A DNA stretch of 64,000 nucleotides. Origin: Cupriavidus pauculus (GTDB lineage Bacteria; Pseudomonadota; Gammaproteobacteria; Burkholderiales; Burkholderiaceae). A program made the position numbers and the translations under genes. Under the pieces are notes generated by a model. The model did no database searches. It had not been told where the DNA came from and worked only from the letters and a program-made list of their open reading frames with translations. Of this stretch, positions 3,132 to 43,121 are shown piece after piece. The number at the start of each line of letters is the position of its first letter. Positions within the stretch are counted from its first letter, which is position 1. The stretch is from assembly GCF_002858765.1 (NCBI RefSeq), contig NZ_PJRP01000003.1:62001-126000 (forward strand). The letters run 5' to 3'.

Positions 3132-4010
3132 TTAGAACGGCGTATCGCCTTCGATCGTGGTGCGGAACATCACGCGGCGCAGGTGGTCGGGCGTGCCGGC
3201 CGCCAGATGCAGCAGCGAGCGGTTGTCCCAGAACACCAGGTCGTGCGCGCGCCACGGGTGGCGGTAGACGTACTCGGGCCGCACGCTGTGCGCGAACAGT
3301 TCATCGAGCAGCGCACGGCTTTCGTCGTCAGGCAGGCCCACGATCTTCGTCGTGAAATGCTCGCTGACGAACAGGGCGCGGCGCCCGGTCTCCGGATGGG
3401 TGCGGACCACCGGATGCACCACGGGCTTGACCTGCGCGATCTGCTCCGGTGTCAGGTTCGGCCGCCACGGACTGCGCTTCTGCAGTTCGGCGTAGCGCGC
3501 CAGGTAGGTGTGTTCGGCGGTCAGCCCTTCGATCTTCTGCTTCAGCGCCGCCGGCAGGCCGTCGTACGCGGCGTGCATGTTGGCGAAGAGCGTGTCGCCG
3601 CCTTCCGCCGGCAGTTCGATGGCATGGAGCAGCGACCCCAGGCTGGGCGTTTCCTTGTACGACAGGTCCGAGTGCCAGAAGTGGCCCGCGTCGCCCAGCC
3701 CGATCGGCTTGCCGTCCTTCAGCACGTTGGACACGATCAGGATCTCGGGGTGATCGGCCAGCTGGAACTGGTGCAGCACGTGGATCTGCAGCGGGCCGAA
3801 GCGGCGGCTGAACGCAATCTGCTGGGCCGGCGTGATGCGCTGGTCGCGAAACACCACCACATGGTGATCCAGGTGAGCGCGGTGGATGCGCCGGAAGTCT
3901 TCGGCGGAAAGGGGCTGATCGAGGTCGAGCCCGATCACTTCCGCACCGAGTGCGGCATCCAGCGGTCGGATCTCGAAATCCTGCACGGTCTCTACGTCGG
4001 CAATCGTCAT
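3132..4010 (-). CDS. TauD/TfdA-family alpha-ketoglutarate-dependent dioxygenase
   Basis: This 292-residue Fe(II)/2-oxoglutarate oxygenase carries the metal-binding H-x-D as HSD at residues 113-115. The distal histidine is in NRSLLHLA (about H268), followed by the RRVMFRTT stretch whose arginine binds 2-oxoglutarate. Such enzymes release sulfite from taurine or alkylsulfonates (TauD, AtsK) or cleave aryloxyalkanoates (TfdA). The adjoining sulfonate-type ABC genes favour a sulfonate or sulfate ester. I chose the ATG at 4010; an in-frame ATG nine codons upstream (4037) lacks family sequence. It is the first gene of the leftward operon. Confidence 0.9.
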   Translation of the reverse strand: MTIADVETVQDFEIRPLDAALGAEVIGLDLDQPLSAEDFRRIHRAHLDHHVVVFRDQRITPAQQIAFSRRFGPLQIHVLHQFQLADHPEILIVSNVLKDGKPIGLGDAGHFWHSDLSYKETPSLGSLLHAIELPAEGGDTLFANMHAAYDGLPAALKQKIEGLTAEHTYLARYAELQKRSPWRPNLTPEQIAQVKPVVHPVVRTHPETGRRALFVSEHFTTKIVGLPDDESRALLDELFAHSVRPEYVYRHPWRAHDLVFWDNRSLLHLAAGTPDHLRRVMFRTTIEGDTPF

Positions 4011-4095
4011 GGCAATTTGTGGCCTTGGGGGAAGCACAAGCCTTGCACTCTAGGGAGCCCGGATGCGGCACACAACGAATCAAATCGCGCGCCGT

Positions 4096-4112
4096 TATGC
4101 GGTCAGCGCATA
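4096..4112. promoter_or_regulatory. Inverted repeat TATGCG-N5-CGCATA between divergent transport genes
   Basis: The 208-bp gap between the tauD-like gene (start 4010) and the ssuA-like gene (start 4219) contains perfect arms TATGCG and CGCATA spaced by 5 bp. A further CGCATA half-site lies at 4133-4138. It is placed where a regulator could control both directions. The protein is unknown; sulfur-starvation regulators of the CysB/Cbl type are the obvious candidates by context only. Confidence 0.4.
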
Positions 4113-4218
4113 TGCACCCGTTGTGCGACCGACGCATAAGCAAGCGCACTTTCCTTCGTTCCCGCAGCACGCCACGTTGCGTAGGCTGACAGGTTGGTTC
4201 TCTCGAAGGATTGCCGCA

Positions 4219-5202
4219 ATGTCATTCCCCAACACCACCCGCCGGCGCATCGTGCTGGGCGGCATGGCCGGCCTGGGCGCCATCGTTGCGCCCGCCATCT
4301 CGTCCACGGCCGCGCTGGCCGCCGACACGCCCGAGACGCTGCGCATTGGCTACCAGAAATCGTCGACGCTGATGATCTGGCTGAAGTCGCGGCAGGTACT
4401 GGAACAGTCGCTGGCGCCGCGCAAGGTCAGCGTGCAGTGGCACGAATTCACGTCGGGGCTGCCACTGCTGGAATCGCTCAACGTCGGCAACCTCGACCTG
4501 ACCGCCGACGTGGCCGATGCCGTGCCGCCGTTCGCGCTGGCCGCAGGCGCCAGCATGACGTACTACGCCATCGAATCGCCGTCGCCCACGGCGCAGGCCA
4601 TCGTGGTGCGCAGCGACTCGTCGATCCGCTCGGTCGCGCAGCTCAAGGGCCAGCGCGTGGCGTTCTCGAAAGGCGCCGGCGCGCACTACCTGCTGCTGGA
4701 GGCCCTGAACGAGGCGGGCCTGTCGATGCGCGACATCGAACCTGCGTACCTGACCCCGGCCGACGCCCGCGCGGCGTTCGAGCGCGGCAGCGTGGCCGCT
4801 TGGGTGATATGGGACCCGTTCCTGGCGGCGGTGCAGCGCCAGGCCAACGCGCGCATCCTGCGCGACGGCGCGAAGCTGTCGAGCTACCGGCGCTTCTATC
4901 TGGCCGCCACGCCGTACGCCAAACGCCGGCCCGACGTGCTGGCCACCGTCTATGGCGAACTGCGGCGCGCGGGCGAATGGGTCAAGGCCAACCCTGCCGA
5001 GGCCGCCGCATGGCATGCACCGCTGATCGGCCTGGACGCCGCCACCGTCGAAGCCGCCAACGCACGGCGCACCTATCAGGTACAGCCCGTGGACGCCGCC
5101 GCGCTCGACGAACAGCAGCGCATTGCCGACGCGTTCGCCGGCCAGTCCATCCTGCCGCGCAAGGTCACCGTGGCCACGTCGCCGGTCTGGAAGCCGGCGT
5201 AA
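4219..5202 (+). CDS. ssuA: Sulfonate ABC transporter substrate-binding protein, SsuA type
   Basis: This 327-residue secreted protein begins with TRRRIVLGGMAG followed by a hydrophobic stretch and ALA, a signal with a twin-arginine-like character. The mature part (LRIGYQKSSTLMIWLK, then FTSGLPLLESLNVGNLDL) is typical of aliphatic sulfonate-binding proteins. I chose the ATG at 4219 because the open frame further upstream (to 4063) has no signal-like or family-like sequence. It is divergent from the tauD-like operon and has no permease of its own here. It may share the neighbouring transporter or be an orphan receptor. Confidence 0.85.
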   Translation: MSFPNTTRRRIVLGGMAGLGAIVAPAISSTAALAADTPETLRIGYQKSSTLMIWLKSRQVLEQSLAPRKVSVQWHEFTSGLPLLESLNVGNLDLTADVADAVPPFALAAGASMTYYAIESPSPTAQAIVVRSDSSIRSVAQLKGQRVAFSKGAGAHYLLLEALNEAGLSMRDIEPAYLTPADARAAFERGSVAAWVIWDPFLAAVQRQANARILRDGAKLSSYRRFYLAATPYAKRRPDVLATVYGELRRAGEWVKANPAEAAAWHAPLIGLDAATVEAANARRTYQVQPVDAAALDEQQRIADAFAGQSILPRKVTVATSPVWKPA

Positions 5203-12810: not shown

Positions 12811-13345
12811 CGGCGCCATATGGATCCGTTTCCAAGCCGCTCCGGTAACCCTCGATAAACTGGCGCGGATCGCCTGTTTCATTTGGCGTTAACGTTCGCC
12901 GCCCCGCTTCAGCCAGAAACATGCCAAAAATATCATCGCTGACAATCATGTAACTTGAAGCCCCATCCGTGAATCGCGGAACGAAAGCGGATAGGAACGG
13001 ATGGAAGCGAAAATCCACGTCGGGTAAAAAATGCAATCGACTTGCCGGGATTGTTCGCACATGGATTTACGCGAATATCCGGGTGTCCACGGTTGCTTCC
13101 CATTACTGATTCTGGTTAGGATGCGGACCGGCGCCATTGAGAAACGCCGCGTTGGCGCCAAAACAATCTGGAAGAACCCGATAACAAGCTAGAGGGCATG
13201 CCGGTTTGATGCCAAGAGGGTTACGATTTCATTCCAATTCGCGTTTGAATCGTGCTTTTCCGGATAATTCTTGTAATATTTTTGTTATGCGGGCCGCTTT
13301 GCAGTCGTACACAACAGCGCCGCCAATCTGAACGGGGATCCAAAA

Positions 13346-24498: not shown

Positions 24499-24657
24499 AT
24501 GGGTATCGGCACCATTCTTCTGATCGTCCTCATCCTGCTGCTGGTTGGCGCACTGCCAACCTGGCCGTACAGTTCCGGCTGGGGCTACGGGCCAAGCGGC
24601 GGCCTGGGGCTGATCGTCATCATCGTCGTGCTCCTGGTGGTGTTGGGCCGGATCTAG
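24499..24657 (+). CDS. DUF3309-type small membrane protein
   Basis: This 52-residue protein begins MGIGTILLIVLILLLVGALP, continues with a Trp/Tyr/Gly-rich turn (TWPYSSGWGYGPSGG) and ends with a second hydrophobic helix and LGRI. That is the complete pattern of DUF3309 proteins. A strong ribosome site AAAGGAG precedes the ATG. The function is unknown; the family is common near stress genes in proteobacteria. It opens the island of small stress-type genes, about 220 bp after the alcohol dehydrogenase. Confidence 0.85.
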   Translation: MGIGTILLIVLILLLVGALPTWPYSSGWGYGPSGGLGLIVIIVVLLVVLGRI

Positions 24658-24719
24658 CCGATCCGGGCCGTGGGTCGCGTGCCTCACCGCGACCCTAACC
24701 GCGAACGAAGGAGATCGAC

Positions 24720-24908
24720 ATGCCAGCCAAATCCAAGGCACAGCAGATGGCGGCCGGAGCCGCCTTGTCAGCGAAGCGCGGCGAACGCAAGTCCGGTTCG
24801 CTCAAGGGCGCATCGAAGTCGATGGCCAAGTCGATGAGCGAAGGCGAACTCGAGAAGATGGCCAGCACGAAGCAGAAGGGCAAGCCCATGCACAAGTCCA
24901 GGAGCTAG
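24720..24908 (+). CDS. DUF3008-type small basic protein
   Basis: This 62-residue, Lys/Ser/Met-rich soluble protein (MPAKSKAQQMAAGAALSAKR, with KGKPMHKS near the end) matches the DUF3008 pattern. It has no membrane segment. GAAGGAGATCGAC precedes the ATG, and a strong terminator follows. It is 62 bp after the DUF3309 gene and probably shares its transcript. Role unknown. Confidence 0.82.
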   Translation: MPAKSKAQQMAAGAALSAKRGERKSGSLKGASKSMAKSMSEGELEKMASTKQKGKPMHKSRS

Positions 24909-24928
24909 GGCTGGCTGGCCTTCGACAC

Positions 24929-24977
24929 ACGCCGCGGACGGGCGCTCCGACAACGGGCGCCCGTCCGCGGCGTTTTT
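24929..24977 (+). terminator. Strong rho-independent terminator
   Basis: Arms CGCCGCGGACGGGCG and CGCCCGTCCGCGGCG pair perfectly around a short loop and are followed by TTTTTT. It closes the DUF3309-DUF3008 transcript. Confidence 0.9.
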
Positions 24978-25031
24978 TGCGTGCATCAGCGTTCGCGCGA
25001 TCCCAAGCGCCCTCTCTGAGCGCCCTCCCCC

Positions 25032-25652
25032 TCAGCGCCCCTCCCGCTCGCACTTGCCCACGAAGCCCGGCAGCCGCTTGGCCTTGCTGCTGCGCGCCAG
25101 CTGGATGGCCTGGGTCATCGCCAGTGCAAAGCCCGGAATGCTTTCCATGTCCTCCGCCACGTGCCGGCGGAAGAACGCCGCCCAGCGAAAGTCGCCGTAC
25201 GCGTTGCCCGGCTTGCGGTACGCGCCCGCATTGCGCGTAAAGGCGGCCAGGCTGCGGTACGGATCGTCGCGCATGCCCATCACCGTGGCGGGCAGGTCTT
25301 TCTCGGAAAGATGCTCGCCGTGTTCGTCGTAGGGATGCACATGGCCCAGCGCACGCATGCGCTTCCAGAACTTGCCGGGCGGCAGATGGCTCAGGTCGTC
25401 AAGGATGGCGACCGGCGCTTCCTGCCAGCCCAGCTCCAGCCAGGCACGCGCCCAGTGATGATGGTCGGCGATGTACAACGCCCCGCCTGGCCCGGCAATC
25501 GTCTGGATGCGGTGTTCCTCCAGAAACCGGCCTAGCGCCTTGGCGCTGCGTGGCCTGGCCGCGACGTCCATCTTTTCGTGGACCTGATAGAGGCCCAGCG
25601 TGATCTGCGTGGGTCGAAGCGTGCCCAGTTCCGCCTTGGCATGCGTGGCCAT
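25032..25652 (-). CDS. ParBc_2-like protein, paralogue A
   Basis: This 206-residue soluble protein has the pattern of the ParBc_2 (ParB-like nuclease-fold) family: TLRPTQITLGLYQVHEKM at the start, ALYIADHHHWARAWLELG in the middle, then MRDDPYRSLAAFTRNAGAYR and FRWAAFFRR. The DHHHW motif and the Arg/Asp block are shared with a paralogue at 27268-27918. Despite the family name there is no sign of a partition role. It ends a leftward group (SDR, AGRF-type protein, this gene) with gaps of about 18 bp. Activity unknown. Confidence 0.78.
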   Translation of the reverse strand: MATHAKAELGTLRPTQITLGLYQVHEKMDVAARPRSAKALGRFLEEHRIQTIAGPGGALYIADHHHWARAWLELGWQEAPVAILDDLSHLPPGKFWKRMRALGHVHPYDEHGEHLSEKDLPATVMGMRDDPYRSLAAFTRNAGAYRKPGNAYGDFRWAAFFRRHVAEDMESIPGFALAMTQAIQLARSSKAKRLPGFVGKCEREGR

Positions 25653-25670
25653 GGGTGCGTCCGTCCGTCG

Positions 25671-26150
25671 TCAGTTGTGGCTGGCGACCTGGCGGTCGAC
25701 GTAGTGTTCGAGTTCGCTGCCGGGATCTTCGTTGCCGGTGCTGTCCTCGGCCACGGCTTCCTCCGCCACCGGCGCCGCATGCGCGGGCCGGGCATCGCCA
25801 TCGGCCCCCTTGGCGGCACCCTGGCCGGGGATGGGCCAGCATTCGCCCTCGGCCGCATCCACGAGCGCGGGCGCGTGCGCCGGGTTGAAATCGGTCCACT
25901 GGCCGCCCTCCCACTTGCCCTTGGCCGCTTCACAATCGCTGGCGCCGCCTTCGCGCAGCACGTCCAGCACCTCGTCACGGCGGTCGCCCTTGGCGCGTGC
26001 GGCGAGCAATACCCCCGGAGGGCGGGCGCCGCCCGGGTCCACCGACATGATCGAGACGTCCCACACCGAGAACCCGCGCGCATACAGCTTCTGCGCGGCG
26101 TGCTCTGCCTCGGGAATGGACGCAAAGCGCCCGGCAACTATCGAAGACAT
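25671..26150 (-). CDS. AGRF/WxDFxP-type hypothetical protein, short form
   Basis: This 159-residue protein starts MSSIVAGRF, as does the protein at 34442-35011. It shares with it the block GVLLAA...LREGGASDCEAAKG followed by W-x4-W-x-DF-x-P. It lacks the central glycine-rich membrane stretch of that paralogue and instead has a hydrophilic Ala/Glu-rich tail. I chose the ATG at 26150 because it gives the shared N-terminus; another ATG lies seven codons upstream. The layout (18 bp to each neighbour) puts it in one operon with the SDR and ParBc_2-like genes. Function unknown. Confidence 0.7.
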   Translation of the reverse strand: MSSIVAGRFASIPEAEHAAQKLYARGFSVWDVSIMSVDPGGARPPGVLLAARAKGDRRDEVLDVLREGGASDCEAAKGKWEGGQWTDFNPAHAPALVDAAEGECWPIPGQGAAKGADGDARPAHAAPVAEEAVAEDSTGNEDPGSELEHYVDRQVASHN

Positions 26151-26167
26151 GATGTTTCTCCCTGTGT

Positions 26168-27025
26168 TCAAGCGTTGACCACTTCACCTCCGTTGATATG
26201 GAGGATCTGCCCGGTGATATAGCTTGCGGCTTCGGACGCCAGGAACACGTAGCCCGCAGCCACCTCGAACGGCTGGCCCGGACGGCCCATCGGCGTCTTC
26301 TTGCCAAACTCCGCCACTTCGTCGGCGGTAAAGGTCGACGGAATCAGCGGCGTCCAGATCGGCCCCGGCGCCACGCCATTGACGCGGATGCCGCGCTTGA
26401 CCACCTGCAGCGCCAGCGAGCGCGTGAACGCCACGATGGCGCCCTTGGTAGCAGAGTAGTCCAGCAGATGCGCACTGCCGCGATACGCGGTCACCGAGGT
26501 CGTATTGAGGATCACGCCGCCCTGCGCCAGATGCGGCAGGGCCGCGCGGGTCACGTGGAACATCGCGAACACGTTGGTCCGGAAGGTGTTCTCCAGCTGC
26601 TCGGTGCTGACATCCTCCAGAGATTCCTGCGGATGCTGCTCCGCCGCATTGTTGACCAGCACGTCGAGCCGGCCGAACGACTTCAACGTGTCGGCGACCA
26701 GCTTGTCCGCATGCTCCACGTTGGCGATGTCCCCGGCGATGGCCAGCGCCCGCTGGCCGGCCTCGGCCACAAGCCGTTCGGTCTCCCTGGCATCGTCGTG
26801 TTCGTCCAGGTAGGCGAACGCGACGTCGGCCCCCTCTCGGGCAAATGCCACGGCAATGGCGCGGCCGATACCGCTATCGCCCCCCGTCACCAGGGCCACC
26901 TTGCCCTTCAGGCGGCCGCTGCCGACATAGTCTTCGGCGCCGCTGTCGGGCCTGGGCACCATTTCGCTTTCCAGGCCAGGCTGGCGGTCCTGATGCTGTG
27001 GCGGGAGTTTGCTCGGGGTAGACAT
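26168..27025 (-). CDS. Short-chain dehydrogenase/reductase, YghA-like long-leader type
   Basis: This 285-residue oxidoreductase has the cofactor motif TGGDSGIGRAIA near residue 47, NNAAEQ, and the catalytic YSATKG (Tyr-x3-Lys) with the upstream Ser in TTSVTAYRG. The about 40-residue N-terminal leader rich in Pro/Gln (PSKLPPQHQDRQPG) is typical of the stress-associated glucose/ribitol-dehydrogenase-like SDR group (YghA, general stress protein 39). The substrate is unknown. I chose the ATG at 27025; a strong -24/-12 promoter lies 43-58 bp upstream. It is the first gene of a three-gene leftward operon. Confidence 0.87.
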   Translation of the reverse strand: MSTPSKLPPQHQDRQPGLESEMVPRPDSGAEDYVGSGRLKGKVALVTGGDSGIGRAIAVAFAREGADVAFAYLDEHDDARETERLVAEAGQRALAIAGDIANVEHADKLVADTLKSFGRLDVLVNNAAEQHPQESLEDVSTEQLENTFRTNVFAMFHVTRAALPHLAQGGVILNTTSVTAYRGSAHLLDYSATKGAIVAFTRSLALQVVKRGIRVNGVAPGPIWTPLIPSTFTADEVAEFGKKTPMGRPGQPFEVAAGYVFLASEAASYITGQILHINGGEVVNA

Positions 27026-27067
27026 GGCCGCTTCGCTTTCAGTGCAATCGTCAATGCTGTCGGGGTG

Positions 27068-27083
27068 CGCAAATTCCGTGCCG
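27068..27083 (-). promoter_or_regulatory. Sigma-54 (-24/-12) promoter for the SDR operon
   Basis: On the minus strand the sequence is CGGCACGGAATTTGCG. It matches the consensus TGGCACG-N4-TTGCW at all core positions except the first T and the last base, with exact GG-N10-GC spacing. The predicted transcript start near 27057 leaves a leader of about 32 bases before the SDR ATG. It is back to back with a second such promoter at 27213. Confidence 0.8.
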
Positions 27084-27212
27084 CGCCTGTGCATTTGCGC
27101 GGCCCCGGCGCCATGCGGGCCAGCGGCGGTGCCCGCGCGCCGGAGATGCGTAACGGTTACAAGCGGTGGCAACGATTGCCGGAAGCGGAGCGCCTGCGAC
27201 GCAGCCACAGCA

Positions 27213-27228
27213 CGGCACAAACCTTGCT
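27213..27228 (+). promoter_or_regulatory. Sigma-54 (-24/-12) promoter for ParBc_2-like paralogue B
   Basis: CGGCACAAACCTTGCT matches TGGCACG-N4-TTGCW with only the first and seventh bases differing and GG-N10-GC spacing. The predicted start near 27240 gives a leader of about 28 bases to the ATG at 27268. The 130 bp between the two divergent promoters would hold shared activator sites; GTAACGGTTAC at 27150-27160 is a palindrome there. Confidence 0.78.
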
Positions 27229-27267
27229 GCTTGCTGGCCAGTTCCTTGTCCTGGAGATCAGACACCC

Positions 27268-27918
27268 ATGGCGAAACGCACACGGCGGCTTGGCAAGGAT
27301 GCGGCACTGATGGTGCCCATCGGTCACCTGCACCCCACGCAGATCACGGTCGGGGCATACCACGTCGCGCAGAAGATGCATGTCACCCGGCGCCTGGCCC
27401 ATTCCGACGTGCCGGGCTTCCTGGACCAGCACCGCGTGCATATCGTGATCGGCCCCGAGCAGGCGCTGTATATCGTCGATCATCACCACTGGGTGCGTGC
27501 TTGGCAGGACATGGGCATCGACATGGTGCCGGCGCTCGTCCGCAACGACTACAGCCATCTGTCGGTCCGCGCGTTCTGGAAGCGGATGACCGACGAACAC
27601 ATGGTGCATCCGTACGACGAACGCGGACGGCGGCGGCCGATCAGCGAACTGCCATCGGACGTCCACAGCATGCGCGACGATCCTTACCGTAGCCTGGAAG
27701 CGTTCGTGCAACTGGCGGGCGGCTATCGCAAGGTCAAGACCGCATACTCCGACTTTCGCTGGGCCGACTTCTTCCGCAAGCAGATCAAGGGGCCACTGGA
27801 CACGCACCACACTTTCGCGGCGGCACTTGCCAAGGGATTGCAGCTTGCCACGAGCCCGAAGGCGCGTGACCTGCCCGGATACCTTGGGCCGTGCAGGAAG
27901 ACACGCCAGAAACGCTAG
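27268..27918 (+). CDS. ParBc_2-like protein, paralogue B
   Basis: This 216-residue paralogue of the product at 25032-25652 shares LHPTQITVGAYHVAQKM, ALYIVDHHHWVRAW, AFWKRM, MVHPYDE, MRDDPYRSLEAF, GGYRK and the FRWADFFRK block. The start at 27268 (MAKRTRRLGKD) adds a basic N-terminus and is supported by the sigma-54 promoter 40-55 bp upstream. The strict conservation of the HHH and Arg/Asp motifs suggests an enzyme-like site, but no activity can be named. It converges on the gene at 27947-28510. Confidence 0.78.
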   Translation: MAKRTRRLGKDAALMVPIGHLHPTQITVGAYHVAQKMHVTRRLAHSDVPGFLDQHRVHIVIGPEQALYIVDHHHWVRAWQDMGIDMVPALVRNDYSHLSVRAFWKRMTDEHMVHPYDERGRRRPISELPSDVHSMRDDPYRSLEAFVQLAGGYRKVKTAYSDFRWADFFRKQIKGPLDTHHTFAAALAKGLQLATSPKARDLPGYLGPCRKTRQKR

Positions 27919-27946
27919 TGCCGTTCTGGCGGCGTTCTCGTCAACA

Positions 27947-28510
27947 TCACGCGACCGCTCCGCGCCGCGCGCGATCCCGCGCGTTGTCGCGCGCCAGCGT
28001 CAGCACGCAGCACAGCAACAGGTAGGCGCGCTTGAATTCGCCGGCGGCCTCGCGCGGGCTACCGCTGCGCGCGTGGCGAAAGCCGGCATCGAGCCTCGCC
28101 TCGATACCGCGCTCCACGTCGGGCTGGGTGTAGAGGGATCGTGTACGGTTCTGCCACAGCGCCATGGTCGCCGTATGCCGGCTGTCGAGCGCAGCCGGGG
28201 AAAGTGCGTCCTCGCGCTTGCTCAACGCCAGGCGCATCTCGCACAGCGCCTGCATCAGCACGCGCGCCTGGCGCAGGTCATTGCCACGCGGCGCCCGGGC
28301 CGTCGCACCCTTGCCATGCAGCGCCTTGGCGGCCAGCCGCGCGGGCGATACATGCAGCGCTGTACCGATGCCGACGCAACTATCGTCGGCATCGTCGGCA
28401 TCAGATGTTGAGAAATTCCCAGCAGTGGGTAGCGACTGACGCGCTTCCGTGAGATAGGTTGCCGGGCTGCTGCTGTCAGCCTCAAGGAAACCGATGACTG
28501 CGTGTTCCAC
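27947..28510 (-). CDS. Hypothetical protein, sigma-54 promoter upstream
   Basis: This 187-residue protein probably starts at a GTG at 28510 (reading M-EHAVIGFLEADSS). The C-terminal half is helical and basic (ARVLMQALCEMRLALSKRED, then AYLLLCCVLTLARDN). I do not recognise the family. Against it: no clear homology by eye and an equally long frame on the other strand. In favour: the best -24/-12 match in the window lies 52-67 bp upstream in the right orientation, and it fills the space between flanking genes. Confidence 0.55.
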   Translation of the reverse strand: MEHAVIGFLEADSSSPATYLTEARQSLPTAGNFSTSDADDADDSCVGIGTALHVSPARLAAKALHGKGATARAPRGNDLRQARVLMQALCEMRLALSKREDALSPAALDSRHTATMALWQNRTRSLYTQPDVERGIEARLDAGFRHARSGSPREAAGEFKRAYLLLCCVLTLARDNARDRARRGAVA

Positions 28511-28561
28511 CTTGGACCTCGATTGCTATGCTGTTCTGCTTGTTGTTGGTACAAGCATCGA

Positions 28562-28577
28562 TGCAATAGCCGTGCCG
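28562..28577 (-). promoter_or_regulatory. Sigma-54 (-24/-12) promoter, best match in the window
   Basis: The minus strand reads CGGCACGGCTATTGCA: GGCACG, four bases, TTGCA, identical to the consensus apart from the first base. The predicted start near 28550 leaves a 40-base leader to the GTG of the hypothetical gene. It lies in the 95-bp gap after the topoisomerase gene. Confidence 0.82.
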
Positions 28578-28605
28578 GTTTGCAAAGGCGCCGACGCCCG
28601 CTGTC

Positions 28606-29733
28606 TCAAGCCGCTCTCCGGGTGGGTCGCGCCAGCGGGGCGGTACTTTCCAGCAGGGCCAGCAGGCGCGCCTCGTCGGTACGCAGGCGCATGCCTGCAC
28701 GGGGTGCCGGTAAAGCCTGCAATGCGCCAGCCATGAACGCGGCCAGCACATCCGGATGCACATAACACTTGCGGCAAACCGCCACCGTGTTGCGTAGCCG
28801 CTGCGCCACGTTGCGGATCACGTCGACCATCGCCTTCTTGCGGGCTGCCTCCGTATCGGCCGGGGTCTTGCGCAGCAGCGCCAGCGCATGCACGCTGCCC
28901 GCCCATGTGCGGAAGTCCTTGGCCGTGAATTCGCCGCCCGTGACCTCCTGCAGATAGGCGTTGACGTCGACCGAGCCAATCTCGCGCACCTCGCCGTCGC
29001 TGTCCTTGTACTTGAACAGCCGCTGGCCCGGCAGGTCCGCGCAATTGCGCACCACCCGCGCCAGCCGCGCGTCGTTGACCGACACATCGTGCGTGACGCC
29101 GCTCTTGCCAGTGAACTGAAAGCGCAGGCGGCTACCTTGCACGGCCACGTGTTTGCGCTTCAGCGTGGTCAGCCCGTAGGTGCGGTTCTGTTCCGCGTAG
29201 CGAGGCGTGCCCACGCGCACCAGCGTGGCATCGAGCAACGTCACCACCGCAGCCAGGACCTTCTCGCGCGGCATGCCATTGCGCGCCAGGTCGCGTGTGA
29301 CACGGCCCCGCAGATGCGGCAGCGCCTGGCCGAAGGACATCAGCCGCGCGTACTTGTCGGCGTCGCGCAGCGCGGCCCAGTCGGCGTGATAGAGATACTG
29401 CTTGCGGCCGCGCGCATCGCGGCCCGTGGCCTGCAGATGGCCGTCGGGGTCCATGCAGATCCAGACCGATTCGTAGGCGGGCGGAATCGCCAGCGCATCG
29501 ATGCGCGCCTGCGTGGCGGCGTCCACGCGCTTGCCGTCGGGCCGGACATAGGTGAAGCCCTTGCCGGCCCGGCGTCGGGCGATGCCGGGCTCGCTGTCGT
29601 CGACATGATGCAGACCCGCCTTGCGCAGCGCTGCATCAAGGGTTGGGGTCGAACTCGGCGTCGAAGTCTGCCTGTCCGGATCGGCAACAGTGGTCTGGGT
29701 CATGTGCATGCGCGTACGCATGAGCCATGCCAT
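28606..29733 (-). CDS. DNA topoisomerase IB, bacterial poxvirus-like type
   Basis: This 375-residue enzyme relaxes supercoils by a transient 3'-phosphotyrosine bond. The N-terminal region (GKGFTYVRPDGKRVDAATQ, IPPAYESVWICMDPDGHLQATGRDA) and catalytic domain (RLRFQFTGKSG, FRTWAGSVHAL) match bacterial topo IB. The active-site Tyr is in CRKCYVHPDVL. Several ATG codons lie close together at the start (29733, 29721, 29709, 29703); the real start may be the last, MTQTT. No -24/-12 element was found upstream. Such enzymes are accessory and often sit in stress or repair islands. Confidence 0.9.
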   Translation of the reverse strand: MAWLMRTRMHMTQTTVADPDRQTSTPSSTPTLDAALRKAGLHHVDDSEPGIARRRAGKGFTYVRPDGKRVDAATQARIDALAIPPAYESVWICMDPDGHLQATGRDARGRKQYLYHADWAALRDADKYARLMSFGQALPHLRGRVTRDLARNGMPREKVLAAVVTLLDATLVRVGTPRYAEQNRTYGLTTLKRKHVAVQGSRLRFQFTGKSGVTHDVSVNDARLARVVRNCADLPGQRLFKYKDSDGEVREIGSVDVNAYLQEVTGGEFTAKDFRTWAGSVHALALLRKTPADTEAARKKAMVDVIRNVAQRLRNTVAVCRKCYVHPDVLAAFMAGALQALPAPRAGMRLRTDEARLLALLESTAPLARPTRRAA

Positions 29734-29836
29734 CCGACTTCAACGCGCCACGGCTAGGTGGCGCATCGCGCGCTTGCAGTATTTACCGATCCAAATGGGC
29801 TTCGGCAGGCGCGCATTGCAAATTCTGCCGTCCGAC

Positions 29837-29852
29837 AGGAATGCTTCTTGCG
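29837..29852 (+). promoter_or_regulatory. Possible sigma-54 promoter before the DUF4142 gene
   Basis: AGGAATGCTTCTTGCG has exact GG-N10-GC spacing and a full TTGC, but the -24 half is only GGAATG instead of GGCACG. It is 63-78 bp before the ATG at 29915. Position and orientation fit; sequence alone is not decisive. Confidence 0.4.
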
Positions 29853-29914: not shown

Positions 29915-30556
29915 ATGCCAGAACGTATAGAACGTAGCTGCAATCGTGATCGAACCTCCCAGCGCATGTCACGCCGCTGGCCGCTTCATGTCGTGGCCAT
30001 TGCCATGGCCTGCTGCGGCGCAGCAGGCGTCTCGCTGGCGCCAGCCGCTCCGCCGGTAGCCGACGCGCCGCTGGCCCCCACCCCGCCAAAGCCGGCCAAG
30101 CCGCCCGCCACATCGCTGTCCACCGACGACCTGCGCTTCGTGGACGAGGCGCAGATGACCACCCACCTTGAGATCTCGGCCGGCGAAATGGCGCTGGAAG
30201 TGTCCAGGGACCCCAAGATCCACGCCTTCGCGCGCCAGATGGTGGAGGACCACAAGGAAGCGCTGGGCGCCCTGCGCGGCATCGCCGCCGACAAGGGCAT
30301 CACGCCGCAGGATCGCGTGCCCGAGGCCCCTGAACTGACACGGTTAAAGTCTCTCAAGGCCGATGAATTCGACCAGGCCTATATCCGGACCATCGGCATC
30401 GACGCCCACGAGCAGGCCGTGCTGCTGTTCCAGAACCAGTCCACGCGCGGCAAGGATCCTGCCCTGCGCGCCTTTGCGTCGCGCCTGCTGCCCGCGCTGC
30501 GCGAGCACCTGAAGCAGGCGCGCGCAATGGACCAGCGCGTCACGGCGGGTCGCTAG
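29915..30556 (+). CDS. DUF4142 (ferritin-like) exported protein
   Basis: This 213-residue protein has a signal-like segment at residues 18-45 (RRWPLHVVAIAMACCGAAGV) and a Pro/Ala-rich linker. The DUF4142 four-helix domain follows: LRFVDEAQMTTHLEISAGEM, FARQMVEDHKEAL, and an Asp/His helix IGIDAHEQAVLLFQN. Relatives are periplasmic and often linked to oxidative or envelope stress; the role is not established. A strong ribosome site (GAAGGAG) precedes the ATG, and a possible -24/-12 promoter lies further upstream. Confidence 0.85.
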   Translation: MPERIERSCNRDRTSQRMSRRWPLHVVAIAMACCGAAGVSLAPAAPPVADAPLAPTPPKPAKPPATSLSTDDLRFVDEAQMTTHLEISAGEMALEVSRDPKIHAFARQMVEDHKEALGALRGIAADKGITPQDRVPEAPELTRLKSLKADEFDQAYIRTIGIDAHEQAVLLFQNQSTRGKDPALRAFASRLLPALREHLKQARAMDQRVTAGR

Positions 30557-33431: not shown

Positions 33432-33447
33432 GGGCATGGCGATTGCG
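33432..33447 (+). promoter_or_regulatory. Sigma-54 (-24/-12) promoter for the BON-domain gene
   Basis: GGGCATGGCGATTGCG keeps GGCA, the G at position 7, TTGC and the 10-base spacing. The predicted start near 33458 gives a leader of about 57 bases to the ATG at 33515. A palindrome CTACA-T-TGTAG lies about 110 bp upstream (33314-33324). Confidence 0.7.
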
Positions 33448-33514: not shown

Positions 33515-33868
33515 ATGCAAACGGAAAGCGAAGCACCACGCCGCACCAGCCCAGACGACGATGACGAACTGCTGCGCGAGCGTGTCGGCACCTGTATCGC
33601 TGAATTCTGCGGCGGCGATATGCCCGACGGCGTGGCCGTGCATGTGGTGGAGCGCCGCGTGACGATTACGGGCCAGGTAGAGGACATCGATATCGCCCAG
33701 CGCATCGAAAAGGCCGCATCCACGCCCCCGGGCATCCTCGGCGTGTCGAACCAGCTCACCACGCGCGTACCCCCGCCGCGCGAGGTGCCCGGCCAGCCCC
33801 CGCTGGCCACGGGCATACGCGCCGATCCAGCGGAAAAGCCGGCCGGCCAGATCAATCACAAGGTTTGA
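33515..33868 (+). CDS. BON-domain protein
   Basis: This 117-residue protein has one BON domain at about residues 20-85 (LLRERVGTCIAEFCGGDMPDGVAVHVVERRVTITGQVEDID, with the conserved Gly of the TGQV turn). BON domains bind phospholipid or potassium-type ligands and occur in osmotic-stress proteins such as OsmY and Kbp. No signal peptide is visible from the chosen ATG, so it is probably cytoplasmic. A GC-rich hairpin at 33879-33908 may end its transcript. Confidence 0.8.
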   Translation: MQTESEAPRRTSPDDDDELLRERVGTCIAEFCGGDMPDGVAVHVVERRVTITGQVEDIDIAQRIEKAASTPPGILGVSNQLTTRVPPPREVPGQPPLATGIRADPAEKPAGQINHKV

Positions 33869-35136: not shown

Positions 35137-36518
<1,382 letters not shown>

Positions 36519-36648: not shown

Positions 36649-38052
<1,404 letters not shown>

Positions 38053-38378: not shown

Positions 38379-39395
38379 GTGTCAACCACTGCCACGCTCC
38401 CTTCCGGCCGCCCCGCCGCGCCGCCCCGCCCTGCGGGCCGCCGCGCCGCACCCGCGCAGGTTTCGCTGCTATGGGAAAGTACCTCGCCAGCCATGCAGCG
38501 GCTGATCGGCCAGCTGAATCGCGTGGCCGCCACCGACGTGACCATGCTTGCGGTCGGAGAAAGCGGCAGCGGCAAGGAGGTGGTGGCGCGCGCGGTGCAT
38601 GAGCGCAGCACCCGCCGGTCGGGGCCGTTTGTCGCGGTCAACTGCGGCGCCATCGCGCCCACGCTGATCGAATCCGAACTGTTCGGCCACGAGAAAGGCG
38701 GCTTCACTGGCGCGCTGGAGCAGAAGGCCGGCTATTTCGAGCAGGCCCAGGGCGGCACGCTGTTCCTGGACGAAGTCACCGAAATGCCGCTGGAGATGCA
38801 GATCAAGCTGCTGCGCGTGCTGGAAAGCCGCTCGTTCCATCGCGTGGGCGGCGACGCTCCGATGGTCAGCGACGTGCGCATCCTGGCCGCCACCAACCGC
38901 GACCCCATGGACGCCGTGCGCGGCGGCCAGTTGCGCGAAGACCTGCTGTACCGCCTGGCCGTGTTCCCGCTGCATATCCCGCCGCTGCGCGAGCGCCCGG
39001 AAGACATCATTCCGCTGGCGCGCCATTTCCTGGACGAGTTCAACGCCATGGAGCAGACGGAAAAGTCTTTCTCCCCCGGCTCGCTCGAACGGCTGGTGCG
39101 CTACGACTGGCCCGGCAACGTACGCGAGCTGAAGAACTCCATCTACCGCGCCTACATCCTGGCCGACCGTCAGGTGGAGATCGGCAATCCAGGCCTGGCC
39201 AGCCAGCCGCCGCGCCCCACCACGGTGGACGGCGTGGTCAGCGTGCGCGTCGGCACCACGCTGGCCGACACCCAGCGCGAGATCATTCTGGCCACGCTGG
39301 CCAAGTACGATGGCGACAAGCGCCAGGCCGCCAAGGCACTGGGTATCAGCCTCAAGACGCTGTACAACCGCCTCGACGTCTACCGGGCAAGCTGA
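38379..39395 (+). CDS. Sigma-54-dependent activator without a sensory domain, PspF-like architecture
   Basis: This 338-residue protein consists of a Pro/Ala-rich leader, an AAA+ domain (GESGSGKE near residue 60, GGFTGA near 107, then [12 protein letters not shown]) and a Fis-type HTH ([19 protein letters not shown]). It has no receiver or GAF domain, so control must come from expression or a partner protein, as PspF is held by PspA. The start is uncertain: I chose the GTG at 38379; a TTG at 38304 and an ATG at 38493 (which would cut the AAA+ domain) are in frame. It points toward glgE and lies 372 bp from it. Confidence 0.88.
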
Positions 39396-39767
39396 AGCGC
39401 GTTTCCCAAGGCATCGCCCATCCTGCTGGTCTGCCGTGTGGTGGGCCGGCGCCTTGCTCACCCCTCGCTCATTCCCTGGCTGACGCCTTCGCGATTCCCC
39501 GCGCCGGCACCCATTCGGGTGTCCTGAAAGCCAGCATTCCGACCGCCGGGCATTCCTACGCCCCAGCCGTTTCGACCCTGTATTTCTTACATAGCTGACT
39601 GCGCAGCGGTGTTGTCCGACATCCGCGCGATCCCTTGCTGCACCGCACGTCGGGCGTGACGACAAGGCTGGCGCCGTCGCTGGCATGCCCTCTGCATGTC
39701 CTCATGGAATTGACATGACGCGCGCCCGCCTGCCCCACGGGCGCCCCACGGCCAGAGGACGTGTGAC
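39396..39767. other. Upstream region of the glgE operon
   Basis: This 372-bp gap contains a -24/-12 promoter at 39681-39696. There is room upstream for activator sites and a bending protein. TGTATTTCTTACA near 39578 has TGTA/TACA arms but no clear partner site. No gene is supported. Confidence 0.45.
39681..39696 (+). promoter_or_regulatory. Sigma-54 (-24/-12) promoter for the glgE operon
   Basis: TGGCATGCCCTCTGCA differs from TGGCACG-N4-TTGCA at two positions and keeps GG-N10-GC. The predicted start near 39707 leaves about 60 bases to the GTG start of glgE. A sigma-54 activator gene ends about 290 bp upstream. Confidence 0.75.
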
Positions 39768-42700
39768 GTGCGCATTTGCCAAATCAACCTGACGGAATCG
39801 CGGGCACTGGACAACGACGCACTGGTGCGCGCTGCCAGGCTCGGATTCGACCATATCCTGCTGGCCGGCTGGTCGGCCTCTCACTCCCGCCCCGACGCCC
39901 TGAAAGCGGCGTTCGACACCTGCCGCAAGCACGGCCTGGCGCCGCTGCTGGACCTGGCGCTCGATCGCTTGCCCAAGGACACGGCGGCCATGCACGACGG
40001 CTGGGTCGACCATGCCCGGCCTGCCGGCAGCCCCAGTGCCACCGATAACCACCTGCCCGGCGTGCGCGTGCGCTGGTTCGACGACGCCACGGCAGGCCAG
40101 TTGCTGGCCTGGTGGAGCGCCCAGTTGGGCGATGCGCTGGCCGCTGGCGCGGCGGGCTTCTGCTGCAGGGCACCATCACGCGTGCCCGGACGGCACTGGG
40201 CCGCGCTGATCGAGACGCTGCAGCGCAACAGCGGGCAGAACAAGGACGCCAATGGCGGCAGCGGCGGCAGCACGCCGCTGTTCCTGGCGTGGACACCCGG
40301 CACCACGCCGCAGCAACTCGATGACCTGGCCACCGCGCCCTTCGACGGCGCCTTCTCGTCATTGCCGTGGTGGGACTATCGCAGCGCCTGGCTGACCGAG
40401 GAAATCGCCCGTCTGCGACGCTTTGGCCGGGTGCTGGCGGCGCCCGCACTGGCGCCGGACGGCGTCGACGTGCTGGCCGCGCGGCGGGCACTGTGGACGG
40501 CCGCCGCCATCGGCGATGGCTGGATGGTGCCGGCCGGATACGAGACCGGCGCTGCTGCCGCGCATGGCGCACCCGGCGCCGCGCTCGATGCATCGCCCAG
40601 CGCGCAGGCCGACGGCCATCCCGACGATATCGTCGACGCGCCCTACGATCTGACCCATGAACTGATGCAGGCCAACGCCTGGCTGGCGGCGCGCGACGAC
40701 GAGCCCGCCGTGGCGGTGCGGCAGGTCAGCGGCCCCGACGCCCCGCTGACCGTGCTGGCGCGCGTGCCGCGCCACGCGGCCAACGGCGCGGCCGGCGAGC
40801 CCGCGCTGACCGTGGTGCTGAACCCCTGCCCCGTGCAGCCGGCATCGTTCGGCGTCGACCGGGTGCTGAGCGGCCTGCCGCAACCATCGGCCACGCTGAC
40901 ACCCGTTGACGGCGGCCCCGGCGGCACGCTCGAAGACGGGCTGGACAACCTGAGCCCCTGCAGCACGATCACGCTGCCGCCCGCGGACATCCGCCTGTTC
41001 GAGGCCGTGCCGGCGCCCGTCGTCACGACGACCGGGCGCAAGAATGCGGGCAATGGGGCGCGCAAATCAGCAGACCGGGCGCCCGACCGCACGCTGGCCG
41101 CCGCCATGGAAGCCCCGCGCGTGGCCATCGAGAACCTGTCGCCCACCACCGACAACGGCCGCTTTGCCGTGCGCCGCACCGTGGGCGAACGCGTGGAAGT
41201 CAGCGCCGATATCTGGATGGACGGTCACGACAAGCTGGCCGCCGTAGTGCTCTGGCGCGGCCCGGGCGAACAGGCGTGGCGTGCCGCCCCGATGGTCCAC
41301 ATCGTCAACGATCGCTGGCGCGGCAGCTTTCCGATGGTGGCCATGGGCCGTCATGAATTCACGGTCGAGGCCTGGCGCGATACCTTCGCCAGCTGGCTGG
41401 ACGAAGTCGGCAAGAAGCGCAAGGCCGGCGTCGACATCAAGCTGGAGATCGAAGAAGGCGCGCGACTGGTGGCGGCCACGCTCGGCACGCCGGACGCGAG
41501 TGCCATCGCCGATGCCGGCGCGGTCATGGCCGATCTGTCGGCCGCCGCCGACGACGCCCTGCGCCTGGAGATCCTGCTCTCGCCGCGCACCGAGGCGGCC
41601 ATGCGCGCGGCGATGGAAACCCCGGCTGGCCGCCCATTCGCCAGCCGCTATCCGACCACGATGCCCATCGAGGCCGACCGCCTGGCTGGCCGCTTTGCCA
41701 GCTGGTACGAACTGTTCCCGCGCTCGGAGAGCGGCGACGTGAGCCGCCACGGCACGTTCGACGACGTGATCCGCCGCCTGCCCGCCATTCGGGCGATGGG
41801 CTTCGACGTGCTGTACTTTCCGCCCATCCACCCCATCGGGCAGGCGCACCGCAAGGGCAAGAACAACAGCCTGAAGGCCGAGCCCGGCGATGTGGGCAGC
41901 CCGTACGCCATTGGCAGTACCGAGGGCGGCCATGACGCCATCCATCCGCAACTGGGCACGCTGGAGGACTTCCAGCGCCTGCGCCAGGCGGCTGCCGACA
42001 TGGGCATCGAACTGGCGCTCGACTTCGCCATCCAGTGTTCGCCGGACCATCCCTGGCTGCGCGAGCGCCCCGAATGGTTTTCGCACCGGCCGGACGGCAC
42101 GCTGCGCTATGCCGAAAATCCGCCCAAGAAGTACGAGGACATCGTCAACGTCGATTTCTATGCGGCGCCACCCGGCGGCGAACAGCTCTGGCAGGCGCTG
42201 CGCGACGTGGTGATGTTCTGGGCCGACCAGGGCGTACGCATCTTCCGCGTGGACAACCCGCATACCAAGCCGCTGCCGTTCTGGGAATGGATGATCGCGG
42301 ACGTGCGCGCGAAGCACCCGGACACGCTGTTCCTGGCCGAGGCCTTCACGCGGCCCAAGATGATGGCGCGGCTGGCCAAGCTGGGCTTCTCGCAGTCGTA
42401 CACGTACTTCACCTGGCGCAACACCAAGGCCGAGCTGATCGAGTACATGACGGAGCTGACGCAAAGCCCGCTGCGCGAGTTCTACCGCCCGCACTTCTTC
42501 GTCAACACGCCGGACATCAACCCGTTCTTCCTGCACGATGGCGGGCGCCCGGCGTTCCTGATCCGTGCCGCGCTGGCCACGCTGCTGTCGGGCCTCTGGG
42601 GCATGTACAACGGCTTCGAGGTCTGCGAAAGCGCCCCGTTGGTGCTGAACGGTGTGGAGAAAGAGGAATACCTCGACTCCGAGAAGTACGAACTGCGCGT

Positions 42701-43121
42701 GCGCGACTGGCAGGCGCCGGGCAACATCGTGGCCGAGATTTCGCGGCTGAACCAGATCCGCGCGAACCATCCGGCCCTGCAGAACCACCTGGGCCTGCGC
42801 TTCTATCACGCCAGCGACGACGCCGTGCTGTACTTCGCGCGCTTCGTGCCCACCGGGGCCGAACACGCGGGCGCATTCGGCGACGACGTGCTGCTGGCCG
42901 CCATCAGCCTGGACCCGCGCGCCCCGCGCGAGACCGACATCGAACTGCCGCTGTGGGAATGGGGCCTGCCGGACAACGCCGCGCTGGATGCCGAGGACCA
43001 GATGTTCGGCACCCGCTTCACCTGGCACGGCAAGCGCCAGCGCATCCGCCTGAATCCGCAAGAGCTGCCGTTCTCGCTCTGGCACGTCAGGCCCCAACGA
43101 CAACCGGGAGACCCGGCATGA
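39768..43121 (+). CDS. glgE: GlgE, alpha-1,4-glucan:maltose-1-phosphate maltosyltransferase, long form
   Basis: This 1117-residue protein extends alpha-glucan using maltose 1-phosphate. The C-terminal two thirds is canonical GlgE: domain N starting near IENLSPTTDNGRFAVRRTVG, the GH13 barrel with FPPIHPIGQAHRKG, nucleophile D829 in FRVDNPHTKP and acid E858 in FLAEAFTRP (29 residues apart, as in Streptomyces GlgE). The first 430 residues form an extra barrel-like domain starting ICQINLTESRALDND that lacks these catalytic residues. The GTG start follows AGAGGA. The stop overlaps treS by 4 bp (ATGA). Confidence 0.92.
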   Translation: MRICQINLTESRALDNDALVRAARLGFDHILLAGWSASHSRPDALKAAFDTCRKHGLAPLLDLALDRLPKDTAAMHDGWVDHARPAGSPSATDNHLPGVRVRWFDDATAGQLLAWWSAQLGDALAAGAAGFCCRAPSRVPGRHWAALIETLQRNSGQNKDANGGSGGSTPLFLAWTPGTTPQQLDDLATAPFDGAFSSLPWWDYRSAWLTEEIARLRRFGRVLAAPALAPDGVDVLAARRALWTAAAIGDGWMVPAGYETGAAAAHGAPGAALDASPSAQADGHPDDIVDAPYDLTHELMQANAWLAARDDEPAVAVRQVSGPDAPLTVLARVPRHAANGAAGEPALTVVLNPCPVQPASFGVDRVLSGLPQPSATLTPVDGGPGGTLEDGLDNLSPCSTITLPPADIRLFEAVPAPVVTTTGRKNAGNGARKSADRAPDRTLAAAMEAPRVAIENLSPTTDNGRFAVRRTVGERVEVSADIWMDGHDKLAAVVLWRGPGEQAWRAAPMVHIVNDRWRGSFPMVAMGRHEFTVEAWRDTFASWLDEVGKKRKAGVDIKLEIEEGARLVAATLGTPDASAIADAGAVMADLSAAADDALRLEILLSPRTEAAMRAAMETPAGRPFASRYPTTMPIEADRLAGRFASWYELFPRSESGDVSRHGTFDDVIRRLPAIRAMGFDVLYFPPIHPIGQAHRKGKNNSLKAEPGDVGSPYAIGSTEGGHDAIHPQLGTLEDFQRLRQAAADMGIELALDFAIQCSPDHPWLRERPEWFSHRPDGTLRYAENPPKKYEDIVNVDFYAAPPGGEQLWQALRDVVMFWADQGVRIFRVDNPHTKPLPFWEWMIADVRAKHPDTLFLAEAFTRPKMMARLAKLGFSQSYTYFTWRNTKAELIEYMTELTQSPLREFYRPHFFVNTPDINPFFLHDGGRPAFLIRAALATLLSGLWGMYNGFEVCESAPLVLNGVEKEEYLDSEKYELRVRDWQAPGNIVAEISRLNQIRANHPALQNHLGLRFYHASDDAVLYFARFVPTGAEHAGAFGDDVLLAAISLDPRAPRETDIELPLWEWGLPDNAALDAEDQMFGTRFTWHGKRQRIRLNPQELPFSLWHVRPQRQPGDPA

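Follow-up and report, generated by a model that had tools for sequence, protein, structure and literature searches.

Here, we analyze the 242-bp gap between two divergently oriented transcription units in a 64-kb stretch of Cupriavidus pauculus DNA, referred to as the window. On the minus strand, the gap is followed by the genes for an SDR oxidoreductase, a 159-aa protein and the ParBc_2 paralogue B, which are separated by 17 and 18 nt; on the plus strand, it is followed by the gene for the ParBc_2 paralogue A (Table 1), the product of which shares up to 95% identity with its counterparts in named Cupriavidus loci. The 159-aa protein has no family match in Pfam or NCBIfam, and its label GS17M is a presumptive one that does not come from a match. 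Using a simple consensus scan, we found no sigma-70-like promoter in the region from 24600 to 28700 (0.4 expected) and neither a sigma-70-like promoter nor a minus-strand terminator-like site between the genes of the SDR operon. Because of this and the short distances between the genes, ParBc_2 B would be the last gene transcribed from the SDR promoter, and both ParBc_2 paralogues would therefore be induced together. Downstream from ParBc_2 B, there is a very strong hairpin with 19 pairs (24929-24973), the T run of which is confined to the plus strand. We rejected this hairpin as the end of the SDR transcript because it is not followed by a T run on the minus strand; moreover, terminator-like matches near the hairpin are no more common than in shuffled sequences (2 versus 2.3). 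A search of Rfam gave no match within the 64-kb window.

By direct reading of the sequence, the gap holds two −24/−12 elements, CGGCACGGAATTTGCG and CGGCACAAACCTTGCT, that face outward, as a preliminary description of this DNA had proposed, and are 129 bp apart. They begin 58 and 55 nt 5' of the start codons of the SDR gene and ParBc_2 A, respectively, i.e., at distances suitable for sigma-54 promoters. Between them lies a putative activator site with the structure GTAACGGTTAC-N8-GCAACGATTGC (27150-27179). Its two dyads are both of the type GYAA-N3-TTRC, and the tandem is located 67 to 96 bp upstream from the −24 element of SDR and 34 to 63 bp upstream from that of ParBc_2 A. The palindrome GTAACGGTTAC, which the preliminary description had placed at exactly this position as a possible activator site for both promoters, is one half of the tandem. 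Beyond what had been described, further candidate promoters with −24/−12 elements and the genes for two sigma-54 activators, RR54 and EBP2, lie within 13 kb.

Table 1. Genes and sequence elements discussed in the text, with positions in the window
Feature	Position	Strand	Remark
ParBc_2 paralogue B	25032..25652	-	Pfam E 7e-49
159-aa protein (GS17M)	25671..26150	-	Second gene of SDR transcript
SDR oxidoreductase	26168..27025	-	First gene of minus transcript; Pfam E 5e-64; NCBIfam PRK06701 above cut-off
−24/−12 element CGGCACGGAATTTGCG, SDR operon	27068..27083	-	Direct reading
Putative activator dyad 1, GTAACGGTTAC	27150..27160		Footprint
Putative activator dyad 2, GCAACGATTGC	27169..27179		Center 19 bp from dyad 1
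−24/−12 element CGGCACAAACCTTGCT, ParBc_2 A transcript	27213..27228	+	Direct reading
ParBc_2 paralogue A	27268..27918	+	Pfam E 5e-54
−24/−12 element CGGCACGGCTATTGCA, upstream of o187 (27947-28510)	28562..28577	-	14/14 loci
Dyad GCAGTATTTAC, upstream of DUF4142 element	29776-29786		
−24/−12 element AGGAATGCTTCTTGCG, upstream of DUF4142 (29915-30556)	29837..29852	+	By eye
−24/−12 element GGGCATGGCGATTGCG, upstream of BON-domain gene (33515-33868, Pfam)	33432..33447	+	14/16 loci
−24/−12 element TGGCCCGGCGTTTGCA, upstream of o35 (35137-35481)	35545..35560	-	15/16 loci
Second tandem putative activator site GCATTTTTTAC-N8-GCACAATCTGC, upstream of o35	35661..35690	-	
Histidine-kinase-like protein	35691..36518	-	Intact H-box, degenerate ATP-binding part; adjoins RR54
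RR54	36649..38052	-	Receiver, sigma-54 activator and Fis-type HTH; GSFTGA loop
EBP2	38379..39395	+	Sigma-54 activator and Fis-type HTH, no receiver; GGFTGA loop
Dyad GTATTTCTTAC, upstream of GlgE-type gene's element	39580-39590		
−24/−12 element TGGCATGCCCTCTGCA, upstream of GlgE-type gene (39768-43121)	39681..39696	+	12/13 loci

The score that we used for −24/−12 elements is our own weighting of a consensus, and motif counting by itself is weak evidence. With up to two mismatches, the consensus occurs 123 times in the window compared with 103 expected (SD, 10.7), and 4 of 100 shuffled sequences reach 123. With the stricter score, there are six sites, whereas 100 simulated windows have 2.3 on average; an outward-facing pair spaced by 60 to 300 bp is present once in the window and in none of the 100 simulated windows. 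In the complete genome, the exact −24/−12 pattern has 33 matches and the reversed pattern 15. The loose doublet GYA-N5-TAC-N8-GCA-N5-TKC is not enriched in the genome (nine versus eight in the control), and the claim for a doublet therefore rests on its strict form.

Conservation of the gap in Cupriavidus

The gap was compared in 14 loci, i.e., that of our own genome and those of 13 relatives. In 13 of them, three blocks are conserved, namely the two promoter elements and a middle block with the dyad; the exception is L018, in which another gene lies between, and in L017 the plus-strand element is located further down. In the promoter elements, the GG at −24 and the GC at −12, which are 10 bp apart, are kept while the spacers vary. 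Both elements are phylogenetic footprints in this sense, which supports the −24/−12 identity assigned to them previously. The middle block consists of GTAA-N3-TTACAA and, after it, GGCAA-NN-ATT or a similar sequence, and the palindrome between the promoters is likewise a conserved footprint.

Among the Cupriavidus SDR orthologues, 48 of 48 have NGGCAYG-N4-TTGCG at most 180 nt from the start codon. Based on score, the element was detected at 48/48 loci compared with 6/48 for the reversed sequence and 8/48 for the opposite strand. In G013, G028, G029, G037, G044, G051 and G059, the score is that of another, stronger site nearby, and CGGCATGGAACTTGCG is also present in each of these genomes. An outward-facing partner element is found at 41 of the 48 SDR loci (reversed control, 1/48), and a GTA-N5-TAC dyad lies between the two elements at 38. 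The strict doublet occurs at 32 places in 31 of 60 genomes (reversed pattern, none) and is absent in the other 29; at 28 of the 32 places, it is located 111 to 211 nt upstream from the SDR start codon. In G002 and G053, it lies in the same island with the SDR gene missed or broken at the threshold used; the remaining ones are in G057, at 1,972 nt from the SDR gene, and in G024, elsewhere. Thus, the strict doublet is close to one per genome at the SDR locus. Because the species are related, all these counts show conservation and not independent events. Altogether, the gap has a conserved dyad between two putative promoters and at looping distance from both, as for a shared UAS, and from this position we infer that the one site is used by both promoters.

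Seven genomes (G001, G015, G019, G031, G033, G040 and G042) have kept RR54/EBP2 and the −24/−12 element and have no GTA-N5-TAC dyad at SDR. A decayed doublet can be seen by eye in most of them, and an outward element with a score of 18 is missing in six and marginal in the seventh. Judged by ParBc_2 identity, these genomes are probably C. gilardii and relatives. The earlier proposal that each of the two transcripts carries one ParBc_2 paralogue holds for this species and near relatives. Two C. necator-like loci that we inspected closely, L053 and L055, retain the doublet and both outward elements, but ParBc_2 A starts ∼1.3 kb further on. In L053, a BON-domain gene (3378-4943, plus strand) comes first on the plus side of the putative shared enhancer and is followed by ParBc_2 A.

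Further −24/−12 elements and the activators RR54 and EBP2

We compared 20 kb around ParBc_2 A from 20 genomes. Gene order is largely common to 15, and the counts for this island are based on these 15 largely syntenic loci and the window; L054 and L056 to L059, which have a split island or activator genes located elsewhere, were left out. Where a gene has fewer than 16 rows, some loci do not contain it or have it too near the locus end, and in L046 most of SDR is lost. Five further conserved −24/−12 elements were found within 13 kb, i.e., before o187, DUF4142, BON, o35 and GlgE, and similar dyads are present upstream from three of these (DUF4142, o35 and GlgE). The element was detected in 15/16 loci for SDR and 12/16 for ParBc_2 A (for the others, see Table 1), with 0 to 1 per gene in the reversed control. 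For DUF4142, RGGAATGCTTYTTGCG is present by eye in seven of seven loci, none of which reaches the score threshold of 18. The loci that fail the score for ParBc_2 A are L047, L049, L053 and L055; the outward element is ∼1.3 kb upstream in L053 and L055, and L049 has an element at −231. No −24/−12 element was detected for ADH (0/13), ParBc_2 B (0/16), the hydrolase (0/15), the iron permease (0/16), o34 (0/16) and RR54 (0/16). Other nonmember genes have one in few loci, i.e., DUF3182 (5/15), topoisomerase IB (3/15), GS17M (2/16), and PRC, HK and EBP2 (1/16 each).

A GYA-N5-TAC dyad lies 20 to 140 nt upstream from the −24 element in 15/15 loci for SDR, 11/12 for ParBc_2 A, 13/15 for o35 and 12/12 for GlgE (∼1 expected in each case); the upstream dyads of o187 (4/14) and BON (1/14, in a variant form only) are weak or variant. 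In our own genome, a dyad accompanies five of the seven island elements versus 2 of 31 exact −24/−12 matches elsewhere, two sets that were chosen by different rules; two island elements match the exact pattern, and the dyad is present at only one of these. On the same strand as the gene for the GlgE-type maltosyltransferase, and after it, are genes of the GlgB, 4-alpha-glucanotransferase and starch-synthase types. Outside the island, a further GCATTTTTTAC dyad is located at 13024-13034 on the minus strand in a long intergenic stretch, with TGGCATGTTTCTGGC ∼100 nt downstream, and is a possible extra member of the regulon.

RR54 and EBP2 both have the features of bEBPs, i.e., an AAA+ sigma-54 interaction domain, Walker A, variants of the GAFTGA-type loop and a Fis-type HTH. 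Of 60 genomes, 52 have an orthologue of RR54 and 51 an orthologue of EBP2. Both occur together in 51; the two genes lie on one contig within ∼2 kb in 50 of these (by eye) and on two contigs in the remaining one. The recognition helix SLKTLYNRL is common to RR54 and EBP2 in 15 of 15 islands. The SDR site also persists in some Cupriavidus, e.g., G007 and G043, in which the genes for the two activators are not linked to SDR. The presence of the site does not depend on that of the activators in all cases, as G023 and G058 keep it and lack RR54/EBP2 at E ≤ 1e-90 and 1e-110; G058 has the SDR promoter and the dyad, and G023 the SDR promoter and, by eye, a variant doublet. Our own genome contains 17 strong sigma-54 activator genes and one rpoN gene. 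In a comparison of RR54/EBP2 with named sigma-54 response regulators, including AtoC, NtrC, ZraR and the PEP-CTERM regulator, the best 25 of 95 NCBIfam models were all below their cut-offs, and the highest among the models listed was AtoC (383 bits versus a cut-off of 714).

A search of 299 genomes from the family, Cupriavidus included, yielded relatives of EBP2 in 154 at E ≤ 1e-110. We analyzed 20 kb from each of 12 loci in eight genera outside Cupriavidus that were picked by their EBP2 match. RR54 is near EBP2 in all 12. In nine (L187, L188, L189, L191, L192, L193, L194, L195 and L196), the same 20 kb contain OtsA, a trehalose-6-phosphate synthase (Pfam Glyco_transf_20 in five of five tested of the nine). 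A −24/−12 element lies 40 to 70 nt upstream from OtsA in 9/9 and a tandem doublet ∼460 to 520 nt upstream in 5/9. Strict doublets number five in these 240 kb compared with 0.0 expected, and they come from two genera. Because the island genes are mostly not found in these loci, the site and the activators seem to travel together while the targets change. This apparent comigration provides the strongest support for the dyads as the site of the activators. In 7 of the 12 loci (L188, L190, L191, L193, L194, L195 and L197), a GYA-N4-TTAC dyad is located between RR54 and EBP2 and could serve in self-control. In L189, a complete sigma-54 gene (AID, CBD and DBD; 3409-4926, plus strand) lies ∼2.4 kb from RR54.

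A shared enhancer as a model, and its alternatives

Based on these sequence comparisons, we consider it very likely that the gap contains a shared enhancer for two divergent sigma-54 promoters, and that its site is better conserved than any other in a regulon that spans the island. According to this model, sigma-54 RNA polymerase would be inactive at the promoter of the SDR operon, which would end in ParBc_2 B, and at that of ParBc_2 A; RR54 and/or EBP2, encoded 9 to 12 kb away, would bind the tandem dyads, and the bound activator would loop to either promoter. The regulon would comprise seven candidate promoters across the island, including the one before the GlgE-type gene. Its products look like stress protectants, i.e., an oxidoreductase, alpha-glucan enzymes, and BON-domain and DUF4142 proteins; because of the GlgE-type target and the alpha-glucan genes, we take the regulon to be a protectant program. 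The elements, their conserved sequence and spacing and the linkage of the activator genes are seen directly in the sequences; the presumed parts of the model are the dependence on sigma-54, the identity of the activator, the looping and the stress signal.

We can envision that only one of the two activators does the work, either because EBP2 is constitutive and is regulated by RR54 or because EBP2 is inactive through its GGFTGA loop. The loops of both proteins, GSFTGA and GGFTGA, deviate from GAFTGA, EBP2 has no receiver, and the dyad between RR54 and EBP2 in 7/12 loci of the family fits one controlling the other; however, the joint conservation of the two proteins and their common recognition helix fit joint use equally well, and we regard a single working activator as possible but somewhat doubtful. 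An alternative in which the sigma-54 promoters are real but the tandem dyad binds another activator or a repressor, with RR54/EBP2 being mere neighbors, is improbable. In its favor, the genome has 17 strong sigma-54 activator genes, and sites persist in G023 and G058, for which the thresholds used gave neither activator. However, tandem sites of this kind also accompany RR54/EBP2 in other genera, where most of the adjacent genes are different; the site is kept in genomes without linkage between SDR and the two activator genes; and the SDR promoter of G057, in which the nearest RR54 homologues are 56 to 59% identical, lacks a dyad. Finally, although matches with two mismatches occur at close to the expected frequency and the simple sigma-70 consensus scan does not reach other promoter types, the conservation at 48/48 SDR loci, the outward pair in 0/100 simulations and the lack of a sigma-70-like site in 24600-28700 make it highly improbable that chance alone produced the elements in a GC-rich genome and that expression depends on sigma-70 or RpoS.

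The shared RR54/EBP2 enhancer, if true, would assign a likely target set and a DNA site to an activator pair. Because the site is short and well defined and its strict form is near unique per genome, this idea is directly testable.

Known systems and a possible stress-protectant program

In Pseudomonas syringae, the two sigma-54 activators HrpR and HrpS act together on one regulon, and both lack a receiver. RR54 differs from them in having one; by analogy, our guess is that RR54 and EBP2 may act jointly in a similar manner. Divergent sigma-54 promoters that are controlled from a common gap are a known arrangement. In the orp operons of Desulfovibrio vulgaris, as reported, two divergent sigma-54 promoters are controlled from the DNA between them, in which IHF sites were shown experimentally (PMC3897727); SDR/ParBc_2 A resembles this system, but here the sites between the promoters are predicted tandem activator dyads instead of IHF sites, and the genes are unrelated. 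Multiple dyad sites are likewise known for receiver-type activators. QseF/GlrR of Escherichia coli, which like RR54 is a receiver-type sigma-54 activator, is described as having several dyad sites upstream from the glmY promoter with the consensus TGTN12ACA (PMC6075780), whereas the sites here are GYA-N5-TRC in tandem, 19 to 21 bp apart. RR54 scores 273 bits against the GlrR model, well below the cut-off of 763. BerB of Burkholderia cenocepacia, which controls berA, is like EBP2 a sigma-54 activator from the Burkholderiaceae without a regulatory N-terminal domain (PMC5552954). We rejected the identity of EBP2 with BerB based on the position of the loop, which is GGFTGA at 107 in EBP2 and is given as GAFTGA at residues 208 to 213 in BerB; EBP2 adjoins RR54. 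Our search, which mostly covered literature outside subscription journals, did not turn up a description of the regulon, the site or the activators.

Trehalose and glycogen-type protectants are usually credited to general stress sigma factors, and the regulon, if true, would put them under an activator-gated switch. A more far-reaching version of the model is that a stress-protectant program of the Burkholderiaceae, comprising trehalose, alpha-glucan, envelope and DNA-linked proteins, is run by sigma-54 and not by RpoS or an ECF sigma factor, that two activators with the same helix act jointly on tandem dyads, and that the kinase-like protein without an ATP site is a phosphotransfer or phosphatase partner; we put this forward tentatively and consider it unlikely in its entirety. 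In Paraburkholderia phymatum, treS is reported to be down in a nifA mutant (PMC8305402); NifA is another sigma-54 activator. The main texts of three papers on RpoN/NtrC regulons (PMC5979394, PMC5491218 and PMC3162934) do not contain the words "trehalose" or "glycogen".

In the histidine-kinase-like protein encoded beside RR54, all 16 aligned rows have the H-box HDLRSSLN without any change. By eye, the N-box Asn and the DxGxG box of an active kinase were seen in 0 of the 16 rows of this alignment. This protein may pass on or remove phosphate rather than make it and is possibly a partner of RR54, either in phosphotransfer or as a phosphatase. Its predicted structure (mean pLDDT, 73.5) matches histidine kinases, including DivL and RetS, which are atypical histidine kinases.
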